Positions 2,476 through 63,994 are shown, counted from the first letter of the stretch. The stretch: 64,000 nucleotides of DNA from Campylobacterales bacterium (GCA_027023405.1 JALVVN010000006.1:119142-183141); one strand, 5' to 3'. Notes: generated by a model not told the origin, from the letters alone. Numbers and translations are program-made.

Positions 2476-4155
2476 ATGGATTTCAAAACCTTAATTACAC
2501 AAATCACCACACTGTTTGCCAATCTCAATAAAAAACAGAAGATCATTATCGGCGCTTCCACTTTGGCGGCGATCGCGTTTATCGTCTTTTTGGTGCTCTA
2601 TACCTCCAGTAAAGGAGATGCGGAAGATGGATACCGTGTCCTCTTTAGCAAACTCTCTGCTTCCGACTCAGCGCGCGTCATTACCCAACTCGAAAATGAC
2701 AATATCCCCTATAAAATCGTCAATGAAGGTACCATCAAAGTTCCTAAAGATGCCGTCTATAAAGAGCGGATCACCATCGCTTCACAAGGCATTCCCCAAA
2801 ATACCAAAGTGGGATTTGAACTCTTTGATACCCAAAATTTCGGTGAAACCGATTTTGCCCAAAATATCAAATATCTTCGTGCTCTCGAAGGAGAACTAGA
2901 GCGCACTATCCAAGCCCTCAACCCTATTGAGGATGCCAGCGTCAAGATCGCCCTACCCAAAGAGAGCCTCTTTGTCGAAGAGAAGGTTGAACCAACCGCA
3001 TCGGTACTACTCAAACTCAAAGAGAATATGCGACTCACCCACCAACAGGCAGCCGGAATCCGCAATCTCATTTCCGCTGCTGTCCCTAAACTCAAACCTG
3101 AAAATGTCAAACTCATCGATCAAAACGGCAATCCCATCGATGAATCACTTACAGACGGATTTAGCCCCCAAGAGGTCTCTACGCAACTCGAATATAAGCG
3201 AAAATTTGAAAAGGAGATGGAGCGCAAGATCATCAAGATCCTCTCTCCGATCATCGGCTCTCCTAAACGCGTCAGCGCCAAAGTGACGGCAGAGTTTGAC
3301 TTTAACCAAAGACGCATTCATGATGAGCATTATGATCCCGATTCCGTCGTGCGTAGTGAGCAAAGTATGGAGGAGAAACGAGAGGGCGGCAAATCAAATG
3401 CCGATGCTTCCGGTGTTCCGGGAGCCATTAGCAATATCAGCCCCACAAAACCGCTAGGCAAAAACAGTAAAAGTAATGAGAAATACAATAAAAGTACTAC
3501 AACCACCAATTATGAAATCTCCAAAACAGTTACCGACACCAAAGGGGAGTTTGCCAAGCTAACACGCGTCACCGCCGCAGTCGTCGTAGACGGCAAATAT
3601 GAAAAAGATCCCAAAAACAAAGAGAAACTCAAATATACCCCTCTTCCACCAGAAACCATCAAAAGACTTGAAGAGATCGTCAAACAAACCATCGGCTTCA
3701 ATGCCAAACGAGGTGATGGAGTAACTGTCAGTAATATGCAGTTTAAAAAAGATGAAAAAGAGCAAGAAAGCAAAATTGAAAAGAGCGCCAAAATGGTAAC
3801 GCTCTTTTTACCACTGCTCAAATATCTCTTTGCGGCAATTTTGCTCTTTATCTTCTACAAAAAAATTATCGCACCTTTCAGTGAACGGATGATCGAAGAT
3901 TTCAGCGCTAAATATGACGAAGAGGAGGAAGAGCTACCCCCTGAAGAGGAGGAACCGGAGAACAATGAAGCACTCGATAAATATGCTAAGATGAAACGCA
4001 AACTAGAGATGGAGCTCGGTTTGGCGCAGGATGTAGATGAAGAGACCCTCAGACATACAATCATGACCGATAAAATGCGTGAAAGTGTCAATGAAAACCC
4101 TGAAGAGTTAGCCAAATTGATTGAAGCCATTATGCGAGATGACAAAGGATTGTAG
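2476..4155 (+). CDS. fliF: Flagellar MS-ring protein FliF
   Basis: A 559-aa protein forming the inner-membrane MS ring on which the flagellar motor and export gate assemble. Seen: a cytoplasmic N-terminus, a first TM helix near residues 23-43, and a YscJ/FliF-type periplasmic ring domain (YRVLFSKLSASDSARVITQL). A low-complexity Ser/Asn/Lys-rich linker lies around 300-345. A second TM helix lies near 439-458, followed by an acidic Glu-rich cytoplasmic tail ending in the region that binds FliG. The stop is directly followed by the fliG ATG. Only fliF, fliG and fliH of the flagellar genes are here, which fits the scattered flagellar genes of Campylobacterota. Confidence 0.96.
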   Translation: MDFKTLITQITTLFANLNKKQKIIIGASTLAAIAFIVFLVLYTSSKGDAEDGYRVLFSKLSASDSARVITQLENDNIPYKIVNEGTIKVPKDAVYKERITIASQGIPQNTKVGFELFDTQNFGETDFAQNIKYLRALEGELERTIQALNPIEDASVKIALPKESLFVEEKVEPTASVLLKLKENMRLTHQQAAGIRNLISAAVPKLKPENVKLIDQNGNPIDESLTDGFSPQEVSTQLEYKRKFEKEMERKIIKILSPIIGSPKRVSAKVTAEFDFNQRRIHDEHYDPDSVVRSEQSMEEKREGGKSNADASGVPGAISNISPTKPLGKNSKSNEKYNKSTTTTNYEISKTVTDTKGEFAKLTRVTAAVVVDGKYEKDPKNKEKLKYTPLPPETIKRLEEIVKQTIGFNAKRGDGVTVSNMQFKKDEKEQESKIEKSAKMVTLFLPLLKYLFAAILLFIFYKKIIAPFSERMIEDFSAKYDEEEEELPPEEEEPENNEALDKYAKMKRKLEMELGLAQDVDEETLRHTIMTDKMRESVNENPEELAKLIEAIMRDDKGL

Positions 4156-8622: not shown

Positions 8623-9889
8623 ACTGTATGTAGGTATCGTTCTTGCAGTCTTTGCTTTTTTATTTTTGACATTTTTATTGATATACATGGTTCTAAGTTT
8701 TTTAGTACTAATGTATAAATATAACGATGTAACATACCCGATATACAAAAGACACCTATCCTATGTTTTAAAACACAAAGTCACAAAATTTGTTATCTTC
8801 TCCTATTTTGCGACATTTATATTTTTATACATCTTTAAAGCAACAGACTACTTTTCAGAAGATAGAGCCTACCCTCAAGCAAAAGCTTATAAGATAGTCT
8901 CTGATTTAGTACTCTTTGACTTTGATTTTTTTATAGCAAATAGAAATCTCTACTTTAGACCTATAGGACTCAAGTTTATCAAACCATATCAAGAGATACA
9001 AGCATATCTCATGAAAAAAGGTTTTCAATACATCCCAAACGATGATGCCGAAAGAGCTATATGGAGATATGAATACTTTTTCTCACAATATATCAGAGCA
9101 CGAGCGGCTCCTATAGACTTTGACAAACTACATAAAGATGATTTGGGATATATACTCCGTATAGGAGGACATCCGACTATCTATAAACCACAAGCAAAGC
9201 AGATGCTTATAGAAGTAGAACAATTACTCGATATGCTCATGGATGCTCCAATGAAAGATAAACGATACGACCAAGTAGAAAGATATTTGACGACTATACT
9301 CTTTAGCCAGTGGTGGGAGCAATTCTCTTTTTTACACTATACACTTGGTGTGAGAACACCACATGAAGAATCTAGTAAAAAATATAGAGATAGACTCATG
9401 CAATGGACGGATGATCCACACTATCTAAAAAGACTCTCCAAGCTCTCTGCTTGGCTTGATAAAACCAAAGAGAAGATCGACAACTCAAAAGCACTCCGAC
9501 AAGAGATGAAAAAACATAAGCTTTTATATCCTGAATTGATGGCGTTGAGGGTATTTGTTCGTGCACAGTTGGCATATGTAGACTTACTATATAAACCTTT
9601 CTCTTGTGAACTAAAAAGTTTACAGAAATACTATAAAACAAGAAAAGAGTTTATCGACTATGCTAAAGATAATAATGATTTTAAAAGGTTTAACTGGAAA
9701 GAGAGAGTACATTTTGAAAAAATAGTTATGTTAAGAAGAAATGACTTTATTCAATTTATTCTTTTTAAGTACTGTAATATAGAAAAAAAACAGCTTGAAT
9801 ATAAGAATAATATTAAGGATTTAAATATTGAAGACATATTTTTAAGTAAAAGTAAAAAAATACTAAAAGGAGTAAAAAATGGCAGATAG
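8600..9889 (+). CDS. Two-TM membrane protein of unknown family, paralogue A
   Basis: A 429-aa protein I do not recognise. The TTG start at 8600 sits behind GAGGAG, in the same context as its paralogue at 10875. Two hydrophobic helices are near residues 5-35 and 55-75. A large mostly helical, charged soluble domain follows, with the shared motifs DRAYPQAKAY, AERAIWRYEYF and MKDKRYDQVERYL. The C-terminal third is Lys-rich and AT-rich in codon use, unlike the housekeeping genes. Its last 11 nt overlap the next small ORF. The pairwise similarity to the product at 10875-12134 extends over most of the length. Function unknown; a defence or contact-dependent role is only a guess from the toxin/antitoxin neighbours. 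Confidence 0.7.
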   Translation: MAYIESFLLYVGIVLAVFAFLFLTFLLIYMVLSFLVLMYKYNDVTYPIYKRHLSYVLKHKVTKFVIFSYFATFIFLYIFKATDYFSEDRAYPQAKAYKIVSDLVLFDFDFFIANRNLYFRPIGLKFIKPYQEIQAYLMKKGFQYIPNDDAERAIWRYEYFFSQYIRARAAPIDFDKLHKDDLGYILRIGGHPTIYKPQAKQMLIEVEQLLDMLMDAPMKDKRYDQVERYLTTILFSQWWEQFSFLHYTLGVRTPHEESSKKYRDRLMQWTDDPHYLKRLSKLSAWLDKTKEKIDNSKALRQEMKKHKLLYPELMALRVFVRAQLAYVDLLYKPFSCELKSLQKYYKTRKEFIDYAKDNNDFKRFNWKERVHFEKIVMLRRNDFIQFILFKYCNIEKKQLEYKNNIKDLNIEDIFLSKSKKILKGVKNGR

Positions 9890-10259
9890 AGTAAAAGAGT
9901 CGGGAAGTTGGGCACAAAGTGAAGTTATCCAAACACTACAAGACAACGGTGTACTACCTTCACATGCAAATGAAGCTATTGCACTTGCGGATGTGATAGG
10001 TTCTACAGCAAAATCATATGCTGAAAATGCAGAGCTGGTAGAAGAGCTAAAAGGAAAAAAACAACTAACATTTAAAATCTTTAAAAATGGTGTCTTTGCA
10101 CCTGTTAGTGTATTGGTTGATTATTCAAATGGTTCAAATGTTGAAAAAGCTATCGCTAAAGCGATAGCTTCAGAGTTAAAAGTAAAGCCCTGCCCAAAGA
10201 TCCCTAACACAACTACACACAAAAGTGACAGAGTACTTTTCCAACTTCAAAGGCAGTGA
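9879..10259 (+). CDS. Hypothetical protein, partner of paralogue A
   Basis: A 126-aa protein beginning MADRVKESGSWAQSEV, starting inside the last codons of paralogue A (ATGGCAGAT overlaps the NGR-stop). The N-terminal half is helical and acidic. The middle has a short beta-like stretch (QLTFKIFKNGVFAPVSVLV). The last 25 residues (after KVKP) are low-complexity Thr/Asn/Gln and overlap the next ORF in another frame, so the true protein may have ended or shifted frame near 10190-10225. I recognise no family. The same start sequence recurs after the second paralogue, where the ORF is only 12 codons. Confidence 0.5.
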   Translation: MADRVKESGSWAQSEVIQTLQDNGVLPSHANEAIALADVIGSTAKSYAENAELVEELKGKKQLTFKIFKNGVFAPVSVLVDYSNGSNVEKAIAKAIASELKVKPCPKIPNTTTHKSDRVLFQLQRQ

Positions 10260-10635
10260 AATCATAAGGACAAACAACGGTTCTATCATTATAGAAGGTA
10301 TTAGCTTCGCTAGTATTGAAAATATACATAGTGCAAATAGTTTTGTGGTTCATAAAAATTTGATATTGATTGAAGACCTTGATGTTGGCTGGGAAAAAGC
10401 GATAATGGATATTAAGAATTATCTTACCCATAAAGCAATCTTATTACAGGGAGACTTTTGGAGTAAACCAACTAGTGATCAATTAATGGACAATAATGAA
10501 CTGTATTTAGATGGGTTTAATAAAGAAGACATAGTAGCACTATATAAAAGTAAGAAAGATGTACAACAAGGATTTTATGCTTTTTTGATGGTAGTGGTTG
10601 TAGTTTTAGTTTTAGTATATATTTTTAAAAAATAG
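10225..10635 (+). CDS. Hypothetical tail-anchored membrane protein
   Basis: A 136-aa ORF (GTG at 10225, +1 frame relative to the previous ORF, 35-nt overlap). The soluble part (TEYFSNFKGSEIIRTNNGS) is followed by a single C-terminal TM segment (about residues 115-133, VVVVVLVLVYIF) and a KK end, so it looks tail-anchored. No good ribosome-binding site precedes the GTG. The ORF may therefore be expressed by a +1 shift from the upstream gene, or be the 3' half of a gene split by a frameshift. The open frame reaches back to 10186. No family recognised. Confidence 0.45.
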   Translation: MTEYFSNFKGSEIIRTNNGSIIIEGISFASIENIHSANSFVVHKNLILIEDLDVGWEKAIMDIKNYLTHKAILLQGDFWSKPTSDQLMDNNELYLDGFNKEDIVALYKSKKDVQQGFYAFLMVVVVVLVLVYIFKK

Positions 10636-10647
10636 GAAGGATAAGAC

Positions 10648-10776
10648 ATGGAAGAACATAAATTAACAGAACATCAAAGAATAAATGTTGAAAAGGTATC
10701 AGGGGCAATTGACAATACTCTAGGTAGCATGATAGAATCAGGTGTAAAAGTAAAGCCCTTAAAGAAATACTATTAG
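10648..10776 (+). CDS. Small 42-aa hypothetical protein
   Basis: ATG behind AGGAAGG, 12 nt after the previous stop. It encodes MEEHKLTEHQRINVEKVSGA and ends GVKVKPLKKYY. It is hydrophilic and probably helical. Its 3' part shares 15 identical nt (TAAAAGTAAAGCCCT) with 3' codons of the ORF at 9879-10259, both giving KVKP, which hints at a common tail or recombination in this cassette. Good ribosome-binding site and spacing support translation; function unknown. Confidence 0.45.
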   Translation: MEEHKLTEHQRINVEKVSGAIDNTLGSMIESGVKVKPLKKYY

Positions 10777-57944: not shown

Positions 57945-58748
57945 GTCTCAATCCCCTTAGATCGAGTCTTTGTTGTAACTGGGTATTGGAACGGGGAGAG
58001 AGGCGGCTCTGTGCGGTCTCAATCCCCTTAGATCGGGTCTTTGTTGTAACTTAGTATTTTAACCACCCTCTCAAGGACGCCTTTGTCTCAATCCCCTTAG
58101 ATCGGGTCTTTGTTGTAACAAATTTTAGGGATTGAAGTGCTTGACCATGTGAGTCTCAATCCCCTTAGATCGGGTCTTTGTTGTAACAGAGCTAGATGCT
58201 CTTATATAAAAAATATTAGCCAGTCTCAATCCCCTGAGATCGGGTCTTTGTTGTAACACAATAGATGCTACTACTACTGTATCACTACTAGAGTCTCAAT
58301 CCCCTTAGATCGGGTCTTTGTTGTAACTATACTCCCACGATTGCTTTAAGAGCTTAAAGTCTCAATCCCCTTAGATCGGGTCTTTGTTGTAACAGTGATT
58401 TAAAAATACAAAAATTGCAAAAATCACTCTGTCTCAATCCCCTTAGATCGGGTCTTTGTTGTAACAGTTGGAGCCCTAAAGATGTATTTGAAAGAGCTTA
58501 GTCTCAATCCCCTTAGATCGGGTCTTTGTTGTAACAAGTTCGCAGATATGAAGAGCTACGGTCAGATAAAGTCTCAATCCCCTTAGATCGGGTCTTTGTT
58601 GTAACGACACGCCACGATCTGGGCTGACCGAAACGGAAGTCTCAATCCCCTTAGATCGGGTCTTTGTTGTAACTAGAGTAGACTACAGAGTTATAAATAA
58701 ATCGGTTATTATTGTCTCAATCCCCTTAGATCGGGTCTTTGTTGTAAC
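57945..58748 (-). CRISPR. CRISPR array, 12 repeats and 11 spacers
   Basis: Twelve 35-nt repeats beginning GTCTCAATCCCC and ending TTTGTTGTAAC start at 57945, 58016, 58085, 58153, 58223, 58293, 58359, 58431, 58501, 58571, 58639 and 58714. Spacers are 31-40 nt. Repeat 1 has G to A at its position 20 and repeat 5 has T to G; the others are identical. Read on the - strand the repeat ends ATTGAGAC, like the ATTGAAAC 3' handle of type I/III crRNAs, and the most degenerate repeat is at the left. So transcription is leftward with the leader at 58749-58967, beside the cas operon. Confidence 0.97.
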
Positions 58749-58967
58749 GGCAACAATGGTGTGTTAAAGAGCGTTTTTATGGGGGTTTGCGTGATCGGTC
58801 GTTTTCTTAAAAGAAACTTTGATCTCAAAAAATGGACTTTTTCTCATTTTAAAACCCCTAAAAATCGGCATTTTAAGTTTCGTTTTATTCTTAAGCGAAA
58901 CTTTGATGTTTTTGACACCTTGTGGGTGACTTCGTTTTATTATATAGTAGATATATTTAAAACTCTA
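58749..58967 (-). promoter_or_regulatory. CRISPR leader
   Basis: 219 nt of AT-rich sequence between repeat 12 and the 126-aa gene. It contains a 20-nt near-perfect direct repeat (58804-58823 and 58888-58907, 18 of 20 identical, TTCTTAA..GAAACTTTGAT) and an inverted repeat AAGTTTCG (58875-58882) / CGAAACTT (58896-58903). Such elements may guide spacer integration. The 81-aa + strand ORF here has no ribosome-binding site and is not called. Confidence 0.7.
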
Positions 58968-59359: not shown

Positions 59360-59632
59360 CTAAAAGAAATCATACGGATGCGCCAAATCCATCGCCGATC
59401 CCATGCGAATACCGTAGTGTTTGATACGATAGATACGGATATCATCCTGCTTCTCATTGTATATCGACAATATCCGATCTACCAGCGACATCACCTCATC
59501 GCGGGTCACATCCGTCACCAAAAAGAGCGAATATTGAAATCGAATCGCCTTTTTCTCCAAAACCTTTGCGATTTTGCGTAGGCGTTTTGGGTCAGAGATA
59601 TCGTAAGCGACGACAAAATCATATTTGCGCAT
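59360..59632 (-). CDS. cas2: Cas2
   Basis: A 90-aa Cas2: VAYDISDPKRLRKIAKVLEK with the conserved Asp in YDISD, then RFQYSLFLV and the beta-5 region DDIRIYRI. Cas2 dimerises and scaffolds the Cas1 integrase for spacer acquisition. It overlaps the preceding Cas1-N-like gene by 14 nt. A second Cas2-like gene is three genes upstream. Confidence 0.9.
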   Translation of the reverse strand: MRKYDFVVAYDISDPKRLRKIAKVLEKKAIRFQYSLFLVTDVTRDEVMSLVDRILSIYNEKQDDIRIYRIKHYGIRMGSAMDLAHPYDFF

Positions 59633-59873
59633 TGTTGATCTCCGTTATTGTTGCGAGTAGATATCCGTCATGATCAATCAAAATGAGATCAATCTTTTGA
59701 CTCAAAGCATAGCAAACACCGATCGGGATATCTAGCGATTTGTTAAGATAGATGCGCTCAATATGAATAAATGCTACGCTGTAGCTATTGGTCGGTGAGA
59801 TGATCTCCAAATACTCCTCATGCATTCGAAGCTTGATCATCGGATCTCTTAGTATTAGTGTCCGTTTTCTCAT
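59619..59873 (-). CDS. Free-standing Cas1 N-terminal-domain-like protein
   Basis: An 84-aa all-beta protein. After MRKRTLILRDPMIKLRM the pattern EEYLEII..SVAFIHIERIYLN, then IPIGVCYALSQ and LILIDHDGYLLATI, follows the beta-domain of Cas1 (an IPLHxIxxLxI strand, then an alpha/beta turn, then VVFLxxxG). The following gene-wise upstream neighbour is a complete Cas1 with its own N-domain, so this is an extra copy, not a broken one. 4-nt overlap with cas1 and 14-nt overlap with cas2 put it inside the adaptation module. It lacks the catalytic alpha domain. The assignment is by pattern, not a search. Confidence 0.62.
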   Translation of the reverse strand: MRKRTLILRDPMIKLRMHEEYLEIISPTNSYSVAFIHIERIYLNKSLDIPIGVCYALSQKIDLILIDHDGYLLATITEINNAQI

Positions 59874-60733
59874 AGCATTCCCCTTATCTCAGTGATAGTA
59901 GCATCGATACGCGGTTCGAGAGAGGCGGAAAACTCACGAAAGTGTTGCCACAATTTTTTTCGCCCTTCATAGCGCAAATAGACACCGCTTTTTTTACTAA
60001 AATCTTGATGCGTGACGATCTTTTGAGAAAATATCTCATAGACAAATTGATTGATATCGGCACGATAGAGCTCCAAAATATCAGACGCCAAAGCCATATG
60101 AGATCGAAAAGGGCGATGCAAAAATCCGAGAGACGGCTCAAAACCAAATCCGATCAAACGCACCCCTATGAGGTGATAGATCAGTGTGTAGAACCACGAG
60201 AGCAGTGCATTGAGAGGATCGAGCGGTGGGCGTTTGGTTCGTCTTCCTTTGTGGAGTACTTTGGGGAAGAGCGAAAAGTAGTGCGTAAAATAGTGGCGTG
60301 AAAAACTCCCCTCGATACCAAGTAGTTCATCTAGTGTCTTAGCCCGATCCAGACGACAAAGTATCTCATGCGTCTGAAGCGAAATCTCATGTCTTTGAAG
60401 CTGTCCGGCGTGGGCGGTGATCTTGCGCGAGAGGATCGTCTTGGCGATGGGTAGCGTTTTTGTCGTGCAGGCTTGATATTGGGCGAGTTTGAGTTGGGCA
60501 TTTTTGGATGAGGTCGTCGTGATATGCGCACTTTTTGTAAAGTCGGATGAAAAGAGCACGACATGGGTAGAATTTGAAGAGAGTTTTGTCAGATCGGCGG
60601 CTTGTAGCTTTTGATCTCCTACGATAAGGAGAGTGTCGATCAGGTGCAAAGGTATCTTTTGTGAGTCGATCTGTAGCAGTTCACTCTTGAGACTGATCTG
60701 CGCATCTTTTCTATCGACGATAATCACATTCAT
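59870..60733 (-). CDS. cas1: Cas1 integrase
   Basis: A 287-aa Cas1 with an N-terminal beta domain (residues 1-75) and the catalytic alpha domain. Metal-binding residues are intact: Glu141 in LLGIEGSFSRHYF, His206 in SLGFLHRPFRS and Asp218 in ALASDILELYR. It integrates prespacers at the leader-proximal repeat together with Cas2. It starts in the last codons of the Cas2-like gene (ATGA overlap). Subtype cannot be fixed from Cas1 by eye. Confidence 0.93.
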   Translation of the reverse strand: MNVIIVDRKDAQISLKSELLQIDSQKIPLHLIDTLLIVGDQKLQAADLTKLSSNSTHVVLFSSDFTKSAHITTTSSKNAQLKLAQYQACTTKTLPIAKTILSRKITAHAGQLQRHEISLQTHEILCRLDRAKTLDELLGIEGSFSRHYFTHYFSLFPKVLHKGRRTKRPPLDPLNALLSWFYTLIYHLIGVRLIGFGFEPSLGFLHRPFRSHMALASDILELYRADINQFVYEIFSQKIVTHQDFSKKSGVYLRYEGRKKLWQHFREFSASLEPRIDATITEIRGML

Positions 60734-61002
60734 AGTATAATCACCCCCTTGTCATACGCTATAAAATCAGCCTTTCCAAAACAGATCGGCTCACCTTCGA
60801 TCGCAATAATATTGATCTTGTCATTATCACGAATCAACTTTTCCAGCTTTGAAACAAGCTCTTTGAGCAATTTTTTATCAAGCGGTGCTTCGACTGCACT
60901 CTTTTGCCCACCCAGTGCATAGCTATGCGCCACCTTTCGCACCTTTTGCAAGCGCTTCTTATCGGCGATGTCATAGCAGACTAGGTAGTGGTTAGTGCTC
61001 AA
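60730..61002 (-). CDS. Second Cas2-like protein
   Basis: A 90-aa protein from a TTG at 61002 behind GGGGGAC; the frame continues upstream but those codons lie inside the 43-aa ORF. STNHYLVCYDIADKKRLQKV shows the Cas2 beta1-Asp motif (YDIAD), and the middle reads YALGGQKSAVEAPLDKK, a variant in place of RVQxSVFE. The C-terminus FGKADFIAYDKGVIIL is typical of this Cas2 branch. Two different Cas2 proteins in one operon may form a heterodimer or serve different Cas1 complexes. Confidence 0.78.
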   Translation of the reverse strand: MSTNHYLVCYDIADKKRLQKVRKVAHSYALGGQKSAVEAPLDKKLLKELVSKLEKLIRDNDKINIIAIEGEPICFGKADFIAYDKGVIIL

Positions 61003-61123
61003 AGCGTCCCCCTTTGTGCTTTGGATATCGCTTGTAGATTCGCTTGGACGGCACGACGCTTGTAAAGCCCTTTGCCTGACGACGAATAATTGCAAGTTTG
61101 TGATAGTCTCTATGCTGTTTCAT
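60992..61123 (-). CDS. 43-aa basic small protein heading the cas operon
   Basis: ATG at 61123 behind AAGGAG (7-nt spacing). MKQHRDYHKLAIIRRQAKGF continues TSVVPSKRIYKRYPKHKG and ends GRFEH. It has about 15 Lys/Arg/His and only two or three acidic residues. Its stop overlaps the TTG of the Cas2-like gene (TTGAGCACTAA), so the two are translationally coupled. A nucleic-acid-binding role is possible. Not recognised. Confidence 0.55.
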   Translation of the reverse strand: MKQHRDYHKLAIIRRQAKGFTSVVPSKRIYKRYPKHKGGRFEH

Positions 61124-61141: not shown

Positions 61142-61182
61142 TTTGAGGAGATTATAGAGGAGTGAAGCGACATTTTTTGTCG
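61142..61182 (-). promoter_or_regulatory. cas operon promoter with CGACA-N5-TGTCG operator
   Basis: On the - strand TATAAT lies at about 61151-61156 and, just upstream of it where the -35 region falls, the palindrome CGACAAAAAATGTCG (61168-61182). A further GACAAAAA half-site lies about 15 nt upstream. The ATG of the 43-aa ORF is 45 nt from the palindrome. An identical-arm palindrome precedes the SAVED gene. Confidence 0.65.
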
Positions 61183-61197
61183 TTTTGGAACTTTTTG

Positions 61198-62124
61198 TCA
61201 GTCTTTAGAGAGATAAGTCTGCAGATCCTCTTTGAGACGATCTTGGAGCCATTTGGGTTTGAGGATGCGGATATGAGGAAGCCACTTTTTGACAAGCGGT
61301 AGTATCTCCATCTCGTTGGTGATTGTATATGTTGCGATGAGTGTTCCATCCTCTTTTTCTTGGGTGATTTGTTGAGATTTGAGATGATTTTTGACGCGAA
61401 AGTAGCGGGCGACAAAGCTGTCGATCTCCAGTGTGACCTCAATGTCGGGAGCTTGATAGTTTTGAAAGAGGGATTGAAACCGCCGGATAAACTCCTCCGC
61501 ATCAATTTCACGGTGAAATGTCTCCGGCTCTAGTTCAAAACTCCGAATAAAATTGATACGCAAAAACTTAAATCCCCCATTCTGCTCTTCTTCCGTCATC
61601 GCCCCTAGATACCAATTTCCCTCGGCAAAGATGATCTTGATGGGCTTTATACTCCTAAAATGCTTGATCTTAGTATCTCGATCGATGTAGCGAATTGTCG
61701 CTTTTCGGTGCGCTTTGATCGCCTCTTTGATAGGATTTAGCTTCTCATCATCCAGGCGCTCTATGGGATTTTCGGCGATGTGGTAGAGTGTGGCAACATC
61801 CTTTTTGACTTGGTGAATGATCGGAAACTCCCGCACATCGAAGATAGACAAAAGCCTCGCGTCAAACAGCGCGATAAACTCGAAAAACTCCCTGATCTTC
61901 ACACTATCTTTGAGATAAGAGAAGAGCTCTTGTCGATTTTGTAGCGCATAGCACCCCCGCGATGGCATCAAAAGCTTCTCCCCTAGAAACTCTTTGAGTA
62001 TCTTGATATCTCTCTGTACGGTTCTCTTGTCCGTCTCAAAGATCTCGACAATCTTCTTTGTGCAAAGCTGATCACTCTCTCTTAGGAGCGTCAATAACCT
62101 GAGTATCCTTTGGGCTTGGTTCAT
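61198..62124 (-). CDS. WYL-domain transcriptional regulator
   Basis: A 308-aa protein: an N-terminal winged HTH (MNQAQRILRLLTLLRE to TDKRTVQRDIKILKEF), a WYL domain with IRYIDRD and EGNWYLGAMTEEE, and a C-terminal WCX-type extension. WYL regulators control CRISPR, BREX and CBASS loci in many bacteria, often sensing nucleic acids or nucleotides. Start ATG at 62124 is behind AAAGGA. It lies between the SAVED gene and the cas operon, on the same strand, and is the obvious candidate to bind the two CGACA palindromes. Confidence 0.88.
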   Translation of the reverse strand: MNQAQRILRLLTLLRESDQLCTKKIVEIFETDKRTVQRDIKILKEFLGEKLLMPSRGCYALQNRQELFSYLKDSVKIREFFEFIALFDARLLSIFDVREFPIIHQVKKDVATLYHIAENPIERLDDEKLNPIKEAIKAHRKATIRYIDRDTKIKHFRSIKPIKIIFAEGNWYLGAMTEEEQNGGFKFLRINFIRSFELEPETFHREIDAEEFIRRFQSLFQNYQAPDIEVTLEIDSFVARYFRVKNHLKSQQITQEKEDGTLIATYTITNEMEILPLVKKWLPHIRILKPKWLQDRLKEDLQTYLSKD

Positions 62125-62180
62125 CTCGCATCCTTTTGGGGTTAAAAGTAGTATTTGATCTTATTGAGACGACTCATCAC
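62115..62180 (+). repeat. 66-bp exact direct repeat, copy 1
   Basis: Identical to 62928-62993. This copy carries the start codon and ribosome-binding site of the WYL gene and an out-of-frame 3' end of the SAVED gene. It lies at the 3' end of the PIN toxin gene, whose last codons (CDESSQ-stop) are read from it. Confidence 0.95.
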
Positions 62181-62631
62181 AAATAGTTAATACTTGATCA
62201 ATTAGTTTTTCTGATATATATATTTCAGATTTTTCTATCAGGTTTATTAGCGGTTTTACCTCTTTTATGTAGCCACTCTCCTTTGCCTTGATCAAAACTC
62301 CCAAACTACCTATGACCTTTATACCGTTTAGAACTGCAAATTTTTTACCTCTATTATCATCGATAAGAAGTAGATCCGCGTCCAATTCTCTATAGAGTGT
62401 TATAGCTTCCAATTCACCGGATCCCAACCCAAGCTTTTCGATTTTCAAATCTACTTTTTTAACTTTATTTTCTAAAAAATCCCCTAATCTAGCGCCATAC
62501 GGCTTATCTACCTTTGTTACTTCATTATAAACCGCATAGGGAACAAACAATTCATCAAACAACTTCTCTAAAAGATCCAATTGATCAACAATCGCTAAAG
62601 TGATCAAAGCAGAACTATCGCCGATTATCAC
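62161..62631 (-). CDS. PIN-domain toxin (DUF3368 type)
   Basis: A 156-aa PIN protein. MIIGDSSALITLAIVDQ, GSGELEAITLYREL and ADLLLIDDNRGKKFAV carry the metal-site acids; GIKVIGSLGVLIKAKESGYI is the DUF3368 signature. It lies 2 nt after its antitoxin gene. The C-terminal six codons come from the flanking 66-bp repeat, so its original end was probably replaced when the module inserted. Catalytic residues are intact. Confidence 0.85.
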   Translation of the reverse strand: MIIGDSSALITLAIVDQLDLLEKLFDELFVPYAVYNEVTKVDKPYGARLGDFLENKVKKVDLKIEKLGLGSGELEAITLYRELDADLLLIDDNRGKKFAVLNGIKVIGSLGVLIKAKESGYIKEVKPLINLIEKSEIYISEKLIDQVLTICDESSQ

Positions 62632-62633
62632 TA

Positions 62634-62882
62634 TTAGTCCTTCAAATTATCTAATTCTGCTTTTATATCATAATCCTTGATCGCAGGTAGTCCGTTTTGA
62701 CTTAACAATTTCATAAATGAGTAGAGATTCATATCCAGTATCTTAGCGCCTTGAGATGTAGAGATTTTCCCTTTTTCATAGAGCTCCAATACAAATTTTC
62801 TTTTAGCCATCTCCTTAAGATGGTCATCGCTTTCATTTATCGCCAAGTATATATCATCAGGTATTTCAAAGGATAAACGCAT
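62634..62882 (-). CDS. UPF0175-family antitoxin
   Basis: An 82-aa protein (ATG at 62882 behind AAGGAGG) with MRLSFEIPDDIYLAI and EKGKISTSQGAKILDMNLYSF, the pattern of UPF0175 antitoxins that partner DUF3368 PIN toxins. It contains a helix-turn-helix-like segment in the middle and should repress the pair. Confidence 0.83.
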   Translation of the reverse strand: MRLSFEIPDDIYLAINESDDHLKEMAKRKFVLELYEKGKISTSQGAKILDMNLYSFMKLLSQNGLPAIKDYDIKAELDNLKD

Positions 62883-62927
62883 AACCAACCTCCTTTTGAA
62901 TCATTATATCATAACTAATCAAGATGA

Positions 62928-62993
62928 CTTGGTTCATCTCGCATCCTTTTGGGGTTAAAAGTAGTATTTGATCTTATTGAGACGACTCATCAC
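62928..62993 (+). repeat. 66-bp exact direct repeat, copy 2
   Basis: Carries the true end of the SAVED gene (stop at 62955-62957) plus a vestigial copy of the WYL ribosome-binding site and its first codons (ATG at 62937, MNQ). Period to copy 1 is 813 bp, with 747 bp of unique sequence between. Confidence 0.95.
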
Positions 62994-63932
62994 GGGCTTG
63001 TACTCCCCGTCATTGAACTGTGTCAGCATGATATCCCAATAGCTCTGAACACTCATCCCCAGCAAGATTGCAATAGTTGTGGGCATAGAGTATGCCAAAG
63101 TGATATGTGGTGAGTGTTGTTGGAGAGTATTGATGACGCTGTATATCTCTTGGTTGGCACGGATAAACTCTTCAGGCTTATGCAGAGTCGCTCCTACTCT
63201 GCTTTCGAGGTGAATGATGGGCTTTTGGAGCTTGTTGAGCGCTACTTTGTGCGAAGCTAGATCGATGGCTATCGTCACATGTTCACTTTCTTCTACTTGA
63301 CCGATATCCTCTCTTTTAAAGATTTCAAACGCATCGATCGGCTCTTTAAACTTTCGCGAATCGATTTCAAGGGCGATAGCATAACTATCGGTCGATTTGT
63401 TGTACTGATAGAGTGTGACTCCCTCCGTCCCGAAGATCGTACCCACTAAGATCGCATTTGCGATTGGTCCGATATAGACCATATGAAACTGCACATTTTT
63501 GGGAGTTTTCGCCTCTAGTCGCTTGATATCGTGTTTGGATATCTTGAGAAAATCGACAAAACGATCCTCATCAAATATATCACCGCTGTACTCAAAGATC
63601 AGATCATCAGGTGTGATATTGAAATACTTTTTAAGATTCTCTTGATGATGAGGATAGCTACCCTGAAAATTTTCAAAGAGTGAAGCAAGTGCTGATCGTG
63701 AGTCGGCGGGATTTGAGATATTGAAAACGATAGGGATAGGTACATTTGGCTGAGAGTAGAGCTTTTGCTTGCGCTTTTCATCGATATAAGCCAGTACAAA
63801 GAGAACTGCTACGATACCTGCTGCAATAGCATAGGCGATCGGCACACCGATATAATCAGCTACAAAAGCCACCGGTACGGCTAACAGCGACGCGGTAGTA
63901 GCAAAGCGATTTGAGAGAATATTTTCTATCAT
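62955..63932 (-). CDS. Two-TM SAVED-domain protein (putative membrane effector)
   Basis: A 325-aa protein. Two TM helices (about residues 12-30 and 32-50, AVPVAFVADYIGV and IAAGIVAVLFVLAYI) are followed by a soluble domain with SAVED features: VTIAIDLASHKVALNK, then a long helix EEFIRANQEIYSVINTL, then HITLAYSMPTTIAILLG and a Tyr-containing end DGEYKPVM. SAVED domains bind cyclic oligonucleotides made by CD-NTases (CBASS) or Cas10 (type III CRISPR); two TM plus SAVED resembles Cap14-type effectors that would permeabilise the membrane. No cyclase is in the window. A CGACA palindrome precedes it. Confidence 0.68.
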   Translation of the reverse strand: MIENILSNRFATTASLLAVPVAFVADYIGVPIAYAIAAGIVAVLFVLAYIDEKRKQKLYSQPNVPIPIVFNISNPADSRSALASLFENFQGSYPHHQENLKKYFNITPDDLIFEYSGDIFDEDRFVDFLKISKHDIKRLEAKTPKNVQFHMVYIGPIANAILVGTIFGTEGVTLYQYNKSTDSYAIALEIDSRKFKEPIDAFEIFKREDIGQVEESEHVTIAIDLASHKVALNKLQKPIIHLESRVGATLHKPEEFIRANQEIYSVINTLQQHSPHITLAYSMPTTIAILLGMSVQSYWDIMLTQFNDGEYKPVMSRLNKIKYYF

Positions 63933-63979
63933 CTAAAGCCTTTTTAGAGTTATTTTAGCCTAATAGTAGTTGAATTTTA

Positions 63980-63994
63980 CGACAATTTGTGTCG
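63980..63994. promoter_or_regulatory. CGACA-N5-TGTCG palindrome upstream of the SAVED gene
   Basis: CGACAATTTGTGTCG, 48 nt from the ATG at 63932, with perfect 5-bp arms and 5-nt centre. Same arms and spacing as 61168-61182 upstream of the cas operon. Downstream AT-rich sequence (TAAAATTC, TACTATTAG) offers possible -10 elements. Confidence 0.6.

Follow-up and report, generated by a model that had tools for sequence, protein, structure and literature searches.

Regulators with a WYL domain are already known to control the bacteriophage exclusion (BREX) and cyclic-oligonucleotide-based antiphage signalling (CBASS) systems, and DriD and PafBC govern responses to DNA damage; the control of CRISPR (clustered regularly interspaced short palindromic repeats) adaptation by Csa3 proteins is known from archaea. 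DriD of Caulobacter is an activator triggered by single-stranded DNA (ssDNA), and its target is ATACGAC-N7-GTCGTAT (PMC12340889). The DriD sites overlap the -35 position and all stand at one distance from the -10 box (PMC12340889), and DriD-activated promoters are described as poor. PafBC uses the motif tTGTCRgtg-8nt-TannnT (PMC5656591). Another WYL activator, SiwR, binds a palindrome between -35 and -10, where the -26 region is needed, and its residues R204/R207 are required for activation (PMC10693628). The WYL regulators of type III CRISPR loci were explicitly deferred to a later study by Hoikkala et al. in 2024 (PMC11229360), and our search of the open-access literature gave no report of a type III CRISPR locus run by a WYL activator through DriD-type operators. 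Here, we analysed a 64,000-nucleotide stretch of DNA from a Campylobacterales bacterium (GCA_027023405.1 JALVVN010000006.1:119142-183141; hereafter, the window), in which a WYL regulator gene stands between two palindromic operators of a type III-A CRISPR locus.

The palindrome CGACA-N5-TGTCG was found in the window at positions 61168-61182 (CGACATTTTTTGTCG) and 63980-63994 (CGACAATTTGTGTCG). No further copy is present there; the number expected from shuffling is 0.02, and two copies were not reached in any of 100 shuffles. All features of the window described here lie on its minus strand, except for the CRISPR array, to which no strand was assigned. The operator O-adapt (61168..61182, CGACAAAAAATGTCG when read toward the genes) stands upstream of the adaptation operon, 45 bp before the ATG (61123) of a 43-codon open reading frame (ORF). 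The operator O-SAVED (63980..63994, CGACACAAATTGTCG gene-ward) stands upstream of the SAVED-WYL unit, 48 bp before the ATG of the SAVED gene (63932). Each operator is followed after 11 nt by a -10 hexamer, which is TATAAT (61151..61156) for O-adapt and a putative TACTAT (63963..63968) for O-SAVED. The PafBC-type motif TGTCR-N11-TANNNT is thus present at the window promoters. The WYL gene (61198..62124) codes for a protein of 308 amino acids (aa) with winged helix-turn-helix (wHTH), WYL and WCX domains, and lies between both operators on the same strand. The original prediction had reported this pair of palindromes with identical arms, their distances to the first genes and the WYL gene between the two units, and each of these statements proved exact.

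The metagenome-assembled genome of 2.03 Mb (44 contigs) contains six copies of CGACA-N5-TGTCG and none of the pattern read backwards. Two copies are those of the window, one lies on contig C21 between cas6 and cas10, and three are inside ORFs. The C21 copy (C21:327-341, outside the window) stands 41 bp before cas10. For the three copies inside ORFs, no -10 box was found at any spacing of 5-18 nt. The mismatch-free composite CGACA-N5-TGTCR-N11-TANNNT has three matches in the genome, all of them at type III-A CRISPR units (cas10, SAVED-WYL and cas2-cas1), where the operator lies 40-48 bp before its unit and the -10 hexamer follows after 11 nt. With one mismatch allowed in the operator, the matches include one 94 bp before cas6. 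No operator was found at the CRISPR array (57945..58750). We place the WYL gene in the SAVED unit, hence under its own operator, because SAVED and WYL are adjacent in the relative G001 and are parted here by an inserted toxin-antitoxin pair.

The same locus was found in relatives titled Campylobacterales bacterium and Sulfurospirillum sp. An alignment of 25 palindrome-bearing upstream regions showed, in nearly all of them, an A-rich stretch, the palindrome, 11 nt and then the -10 box. At 27 WYL-ortholog or cas loci, we found 30 sites consisting of the operator (one arm mismatch allowed), N11 and a -10 box, versus 0-1 in Markov controls, and 11 nt was the dominant spacing. When the spacing was left free (5-18 nt) in 250 genomes, 16 of the 22 matches fell at exactly 11 nt (nominal binomial p 2e-14), and the reversed control gave three in total. 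Among 400 genomes of the order, there were 40 composite sites versus one for the reversed control; by our count, 32 of the 40 have type III cas genes and/or a WYL gene nearby, and the remainder are unplaced or without such a neighbour. The operator precedes cas10 in G003, G005 (two loci), G013, G378 and G170, the adaptation genes in G003, G008, G022, G099 and G039, SAVED-WYL in G001 and G022, and cas6 or csx20-cas6 in G022 and G099. A repeated search with the family profile revealed WYL relatives in G005, G160, G170 and G001. A related-locus search of genome contigs with the single WYL protein as query found nothing.

A blind scan of 85,462 genomes with AACGACANNNNNTGTCR-N11-TATAAT gave 35 matches. 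Apart from matches in Campylobacterota, four Clostridia contigs (L093, L099, L104 and L118) were hit, in which the site lies 43-66 bp upstream of a WYL-family regulator gene; the Pfam WYL match is weak in these proteins and exceeds the cut-off in L099 only. Because these sites precede WYL-family genes, the motif appears tied to WYL regulators independently of CRISPR. Nine of the 35 matches are from Levilactobacillus; they lie near or upstream of genes for secreted proteins, no WYL gene was seen in their vicinity, and they probably reflect chance or another use of the motif.

The WYL protein was compared with the described regulators. It has Pfam HTH, WYL and WCX matches and a helical linker, and it gives a full-length match in the DriD-type architecture (about 310-330 aa). 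Its alignment-based structure model has a predicted local distance difference test (pLDDT) score of 89.9. Foldseek ranked DriD first (1.3e-13), followed by PafBC (3.5e-11) and CapW/BrxR (about 1e-7), and a sequence-profile search gave the same order, with DriD covered over profile positions 1-305. The conserved basic pair K186/R189 aligns with arginines of DriD, in the region of SiwR R204/R207. The alignment with DriD is weak in the three-helix bundle (RNA polymerase contact residues G18, A20, R120-R122 and P125).

The operators can be compared as well. The locus shares with the DriD regulon of Caulobacter crescentus the wHTH-WYL-WCX regulator, the CGAC-N7-GTCG arms and spacing, and a site over -35 at a fixed distance to -10. 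The published DriD probe ATACGACAGTAACTGTCGTAT contains CGACA-GTAAC-TGTCG (PMC12340889), that is, CGACA-N5-TGTCG letter for letter. In two DriD promoters printed in PMC12340889, we could assign a plausible -10 box after 11 nt; the bapE promoter gave no script alignment to the pattern, and the fixed distance there is as stated in PMC12340889. The DriD regulon differs in its content, since it comprises SOS-independent DNA-damage genes (didA, bapE, dnaG, recJ), whereas three or four CRISPR units are concerned here, and the two proteins are only about 18% identical. No link to CRISPR was found in the DriD literature examined. The PafBC motif equals TGTCR-N11-TAnnnT, and the PafBC/RecA-NDp mycobacterial promoters likewise have TGTCR 11 nt before TAnnnT; PafBC is a WYL-WCX activator whose trigger is ssDNA (PMC5656591, PMC11804915). 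In contrast to the one gene and the palindrome found here, PafBC is heterodimeric, its site is not a palindrome, and it cannot bind DNA without RNA polymerase (PMC5656591, PMC11804915). A pair of adjacent or fused WYL genes of the PafBC type was not found; the locus has a single WYL gene. Csa3a and Csa3b of Sulfolobus are also transcription factors encoded with CRISPR and adjust the adaptation genes of hosts that have type III systems, but they are archaeal CARF-wHTH proteins of an unrelated fold that bind cyclic oligoadenylate (PMC7480081, PMC8844856).

The identity of the operator, its position, its conservation, the 11-nt spacing and the association with WYL genes are observed. As to function, we consider it fairly probable that the WYL protein is a homodimeric, DriD-like, ssDNA-triggered activator of its own type III-A locus, including interference, the signalling effector, adaptation and itself. 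That the protein binds CGACA-N5-TGTCG is very likely and strongly supported. By analogy with DriD and PafBC, activation rather than repression is likely, and ssDNA is the likely ligand. In the proposed mechanism, ssDNA from phage replication or DNA damage would be bound in the WYL domain. A WYL dimer on CGACA-N5-TGTCG at about -38 to -24, over the -35 position, would help RNA polymerase to use the -10 box exactly 11 nt downstream. Three promoters, or four counting the one-mismatch cas6 site, would be regulated in this way, and the units driven would be cas6, cas10-csm-csx1 (interference and cyclic-oligoadenylate-making), SAVED-WYL and the cas2-cas1 adaptation operon. With the WYL gene inside the SAVED-WYL unit, a positive feedback loop would be formed, and interference, signalling and memory formation would rise jointly.

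The original prediction had placed the SAVED effector and the adaptation genes under one WYL regulator, which would switch them on together. Control by one regulator is supported, as the palindrome is not scattered through the genome, all three promoter-linked sites are at the CRISPR locus, and homologous loci have kept it; the joint switching on would follow from the analogy with the known activators. The extent of the regulon was right for these two units but understated, since cas10-csm-csx1 and probably cas6 also carry the operator. Similarly, the shared operator of the WYL regulator stood, but the 11-nt lock, the identity with the DriD operator and the position of the WYL gene inside the regulated SAVED unit had been missed.

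Several points weigh against an activator of the DriD type. The low identity with DriD is accompanied by modest template modelling scores (TM-scores), the latter owing to differing domain arrangements. Several of the -10 boxes are near consensus, whereas DriD-activated promoters are described as poor; the promoters may therefore be good by themselves and held down by a repressor. BrxR, a WYL protein of the repressor type, also has a pseudo-palindrome over -35 (PMC9122589). The cross-genome counts take in related, non-independent genomes, which makes the nominal p-values optimistic. The operator is present at cas10 of G013 (L158, L216) and G378 (L219), although the family-profile search of these fragmented, metagenome-assembled genomes gave no WYL relative; the regulator may have been lost, may be divergent or may lie inside an assembly gap. 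Finally, no site could be recognised at the loci of the family f15 WYL orthologs. In G013, we also observed that two SAVED copies are kept and that a one-mismatch operator lies beside a csx1 gene.

The main rival keeps the same regulator and operators with the opposite sign, namely repression of the CapW/BrxR kind, in which the protein would occlude the -35 region of every CRISPR unit until ssDNA releases it. We consider it rather unlikely, though some points speak for it. CapW and BrxR are WYL regulators found, as here, in phage-defence loci and respond to infection or ssDNA (PMC9122588, PMC9122589); they repress defence operons and are relieved by ssDNA (PMC13373217). The prediction of induction by ssDNA consequently holds for either sign. 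Many -10 boxes at these loci are close to the consensus TATAAT. As far as it is cited in PMC4012209, sll7009 of Synechocystis, a WYL protein that likewise adjoins a CRISPR-Cas system, is a negative regulator, there of a type I-D system. However, CapW binds over the -10 box (PMC9122588) and not at -38 to -24, and no such palindrome over -10 was found here, as the operator ends 11 nt before it; the BrxR site over -35 leaves the repressor type partly open. Moreover, DriD and PafBC, both of them activators, have the same strict 11-nt phasing and operator sequence, and the predicted structure of the WYL protein is closer to the activators, with a weaker match to CapW/BrxR.

It is improbable that the palindromes are bound by another regulator, such as the second WYL protein of the genome, while the CRISPR WYL gene does something else. 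Immediately upstream of the gene for this second protein (C38:7111-7980, 30% identity; L221 2090-3031 and 3033) lies a DriD-like site with one mismatch (GGACAAAATATGTCA-N11-TACACT), which is divergent and points away from the gene toward a 361-aa ORF, and G013 and G378, as described above, have the operator without a detected WYL relative. Nevertheless, the best sites of the genome cluster with the CRISPR WYL gene, and operator and WYL gene are found paired again at related loci from several families. It is very improbable that the palindromes arose by chance, or that they belong to a general promoter element of the Campylobacterales without a dedicated regulator: the pattern is palindromic, AT-rich promoters are common and some sites elsewhere lack a WYL or cas neighbour, but the 40 sites versus one reversed control, mostly at CRISPR or WYL loci and with fixed spacing, speak against this. 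A chance origin was rejected with shuffles, reversed-pattern controls, the free-spacing scan and Markov controls, and scatter through unrelated genes was rejected, as the three perfect non-CRISPR sites lack a -10 box.

We then return to the genes of the locus that the putative activator would control. The SAVED effector gene (62955..63932) codes for a protein with N-terminal membrane helices. It was assigned by PADLOC to SAVED4 SAVED_TM ('CARF, 4 TMs'; E 3.5e-39 across the full protein) and matches SAVED in Pfam and NCBIfam; its N-terminus is hydrophobic by eye. The pair inserted between SAVED and WYL, UPF0175 and PIN (DUF3368), occupies 62161..62888, outside the regulon proper, and is flanked by exact 66-bp direct repeats (62115-62180 and 62928-62993). 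G001 and G022 have no UPF0175/PIN pair at that place, or have other toxin-antitoxin genes nearby. Upstream, the window contig carries a csx1-like gene, csm5, csm4, csm3, csm2 and the C-terminal part of cas10, and then ends. Contig C21 opens with the N-terminal part of cas10, and cas6 stands before cas10. As the two pieces of cas10 stand at two contig ends, C21 and C6 probably flank a single gap inside this gene. The order of the locus is then probably cas6-(site)-cas10-csm2-5-csx1-(site)-SAVED-(toxin-antitoxin)-WYL-(site)-small ORF-cas2-cas1-cas1N-cas2-CRISPR array. The type III-A gene set was found with NCBIfam profiles for Csm2-5, for the N- and C-terminal pieces of Csm1 (at the two contig ends) and TIGR02221, and Cas6 was below the cut-off. 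Cas10 retains the HD (LLHDIGKF) and GGDD motifs, as read from translations; because both are kept, synthesis of cyclic oligoadenylate for the SAVED and Csx1 effectors is plausible.

The adaptation operon is opened by the 43-aa basic protein (60992..61123, MKQHRDYHKLAIIRRQ...), which has no Pfam match. This very basic ORF (MKQHRDYHKLAIIRRQAKGFTSVVPSKRIYKR...) has a 41-42-aa counterpart at the same place in G008 (L040 near 3350-3480) and a similar start only in G022. It is overlapped by the TTG start of cas2 copy A (60730..61002; the listed ORF, 60730-61095, is longer). Next come cas1 (59870..60733, profile match), the gene for a stand-alone Cas1 N-terminal-domain protein of 84 aa (cas1N, 59619..59873), assigned from an AlphaFold2 model and Foldseek, and cas2 copy B (59360..59632, profile match). 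The CRISPR array is partial, with 12 repeat copies in the searched stretch, and its start is not delimited. The operon at 59360-61002 thus includes two Cas2 paralogs, Cas1 and Cas1N, and the order cas2-cas1-cas1N-cas2 is conserved (L039, L040, L041, L046, L086). The Cas1N model has a pLDDT of 88.8, and the 50 best Foldseek matches listed were all Cas1 or Cas1-Cas2 complex chains (best E 1.5e-5). From this composition, we suggest that the integrase may be a Cas1-Cas2 heteromer that includes a non-catalytic Cas1 fragment.

The operator was also observed in other gene clusters. In Campylobacter (L103 and L171, with homologous loci L135-L137), operator, N11 and -10 precede a gene for a small membrane protein (MGKLGFILGG...); a LeoBC-like, dynamin-like GTPase and a WYL gene belong to the same cluster, which may be a further defence cluster under WYL control. 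In family f8 (G099 and relatives; L080 8059-9367, L083, L087), the operator stands before the genes of small membrane or secreted proteins and before that of an outer-membrane beta-barrel, beside the WYL gene. Operators also occur near genes of reverse transcriptase-Cas1 fusions in G001 and G164 (L166 2562-4766, L087 15609-17915), on which basis the acquisition of RNA spacers may be under the same control. In G075 (L176 9303; 9654-10739), the operator lies beside a gene for a Card1-like CARF-PDDEXK effector; a transposase-like ORF is close by, and the 20 kb examined contain no WYL gene.

That WYL proteins occur beside CRISPR and CARF genes has been noted since at least 2014, and a role as ligand-sensing regulators was predicted for them. 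One such protein can now be assigned a concrete operator and target promoters, together with a predicted sign and a predicted ligand. We lean slightly toward the broader view that type III CRISPR is run here as a branch of an SOS-independent, DNA-damage-type response, with crRNA processing and the cyclase complex among the functions that the activator would turn on, and that the same operator-promoter design in other WYL clusters of Campylobacterales and Clostridia allows one motif to predict WYL regulons. As the blind Clostridia matches suggest, CGACA-N5-TGTCR-N11-TANNNT may serve as a search key for other regulons of this kind. If the proposed activation is true, type III adaptation and interference would be induced jointly by ssDNA.

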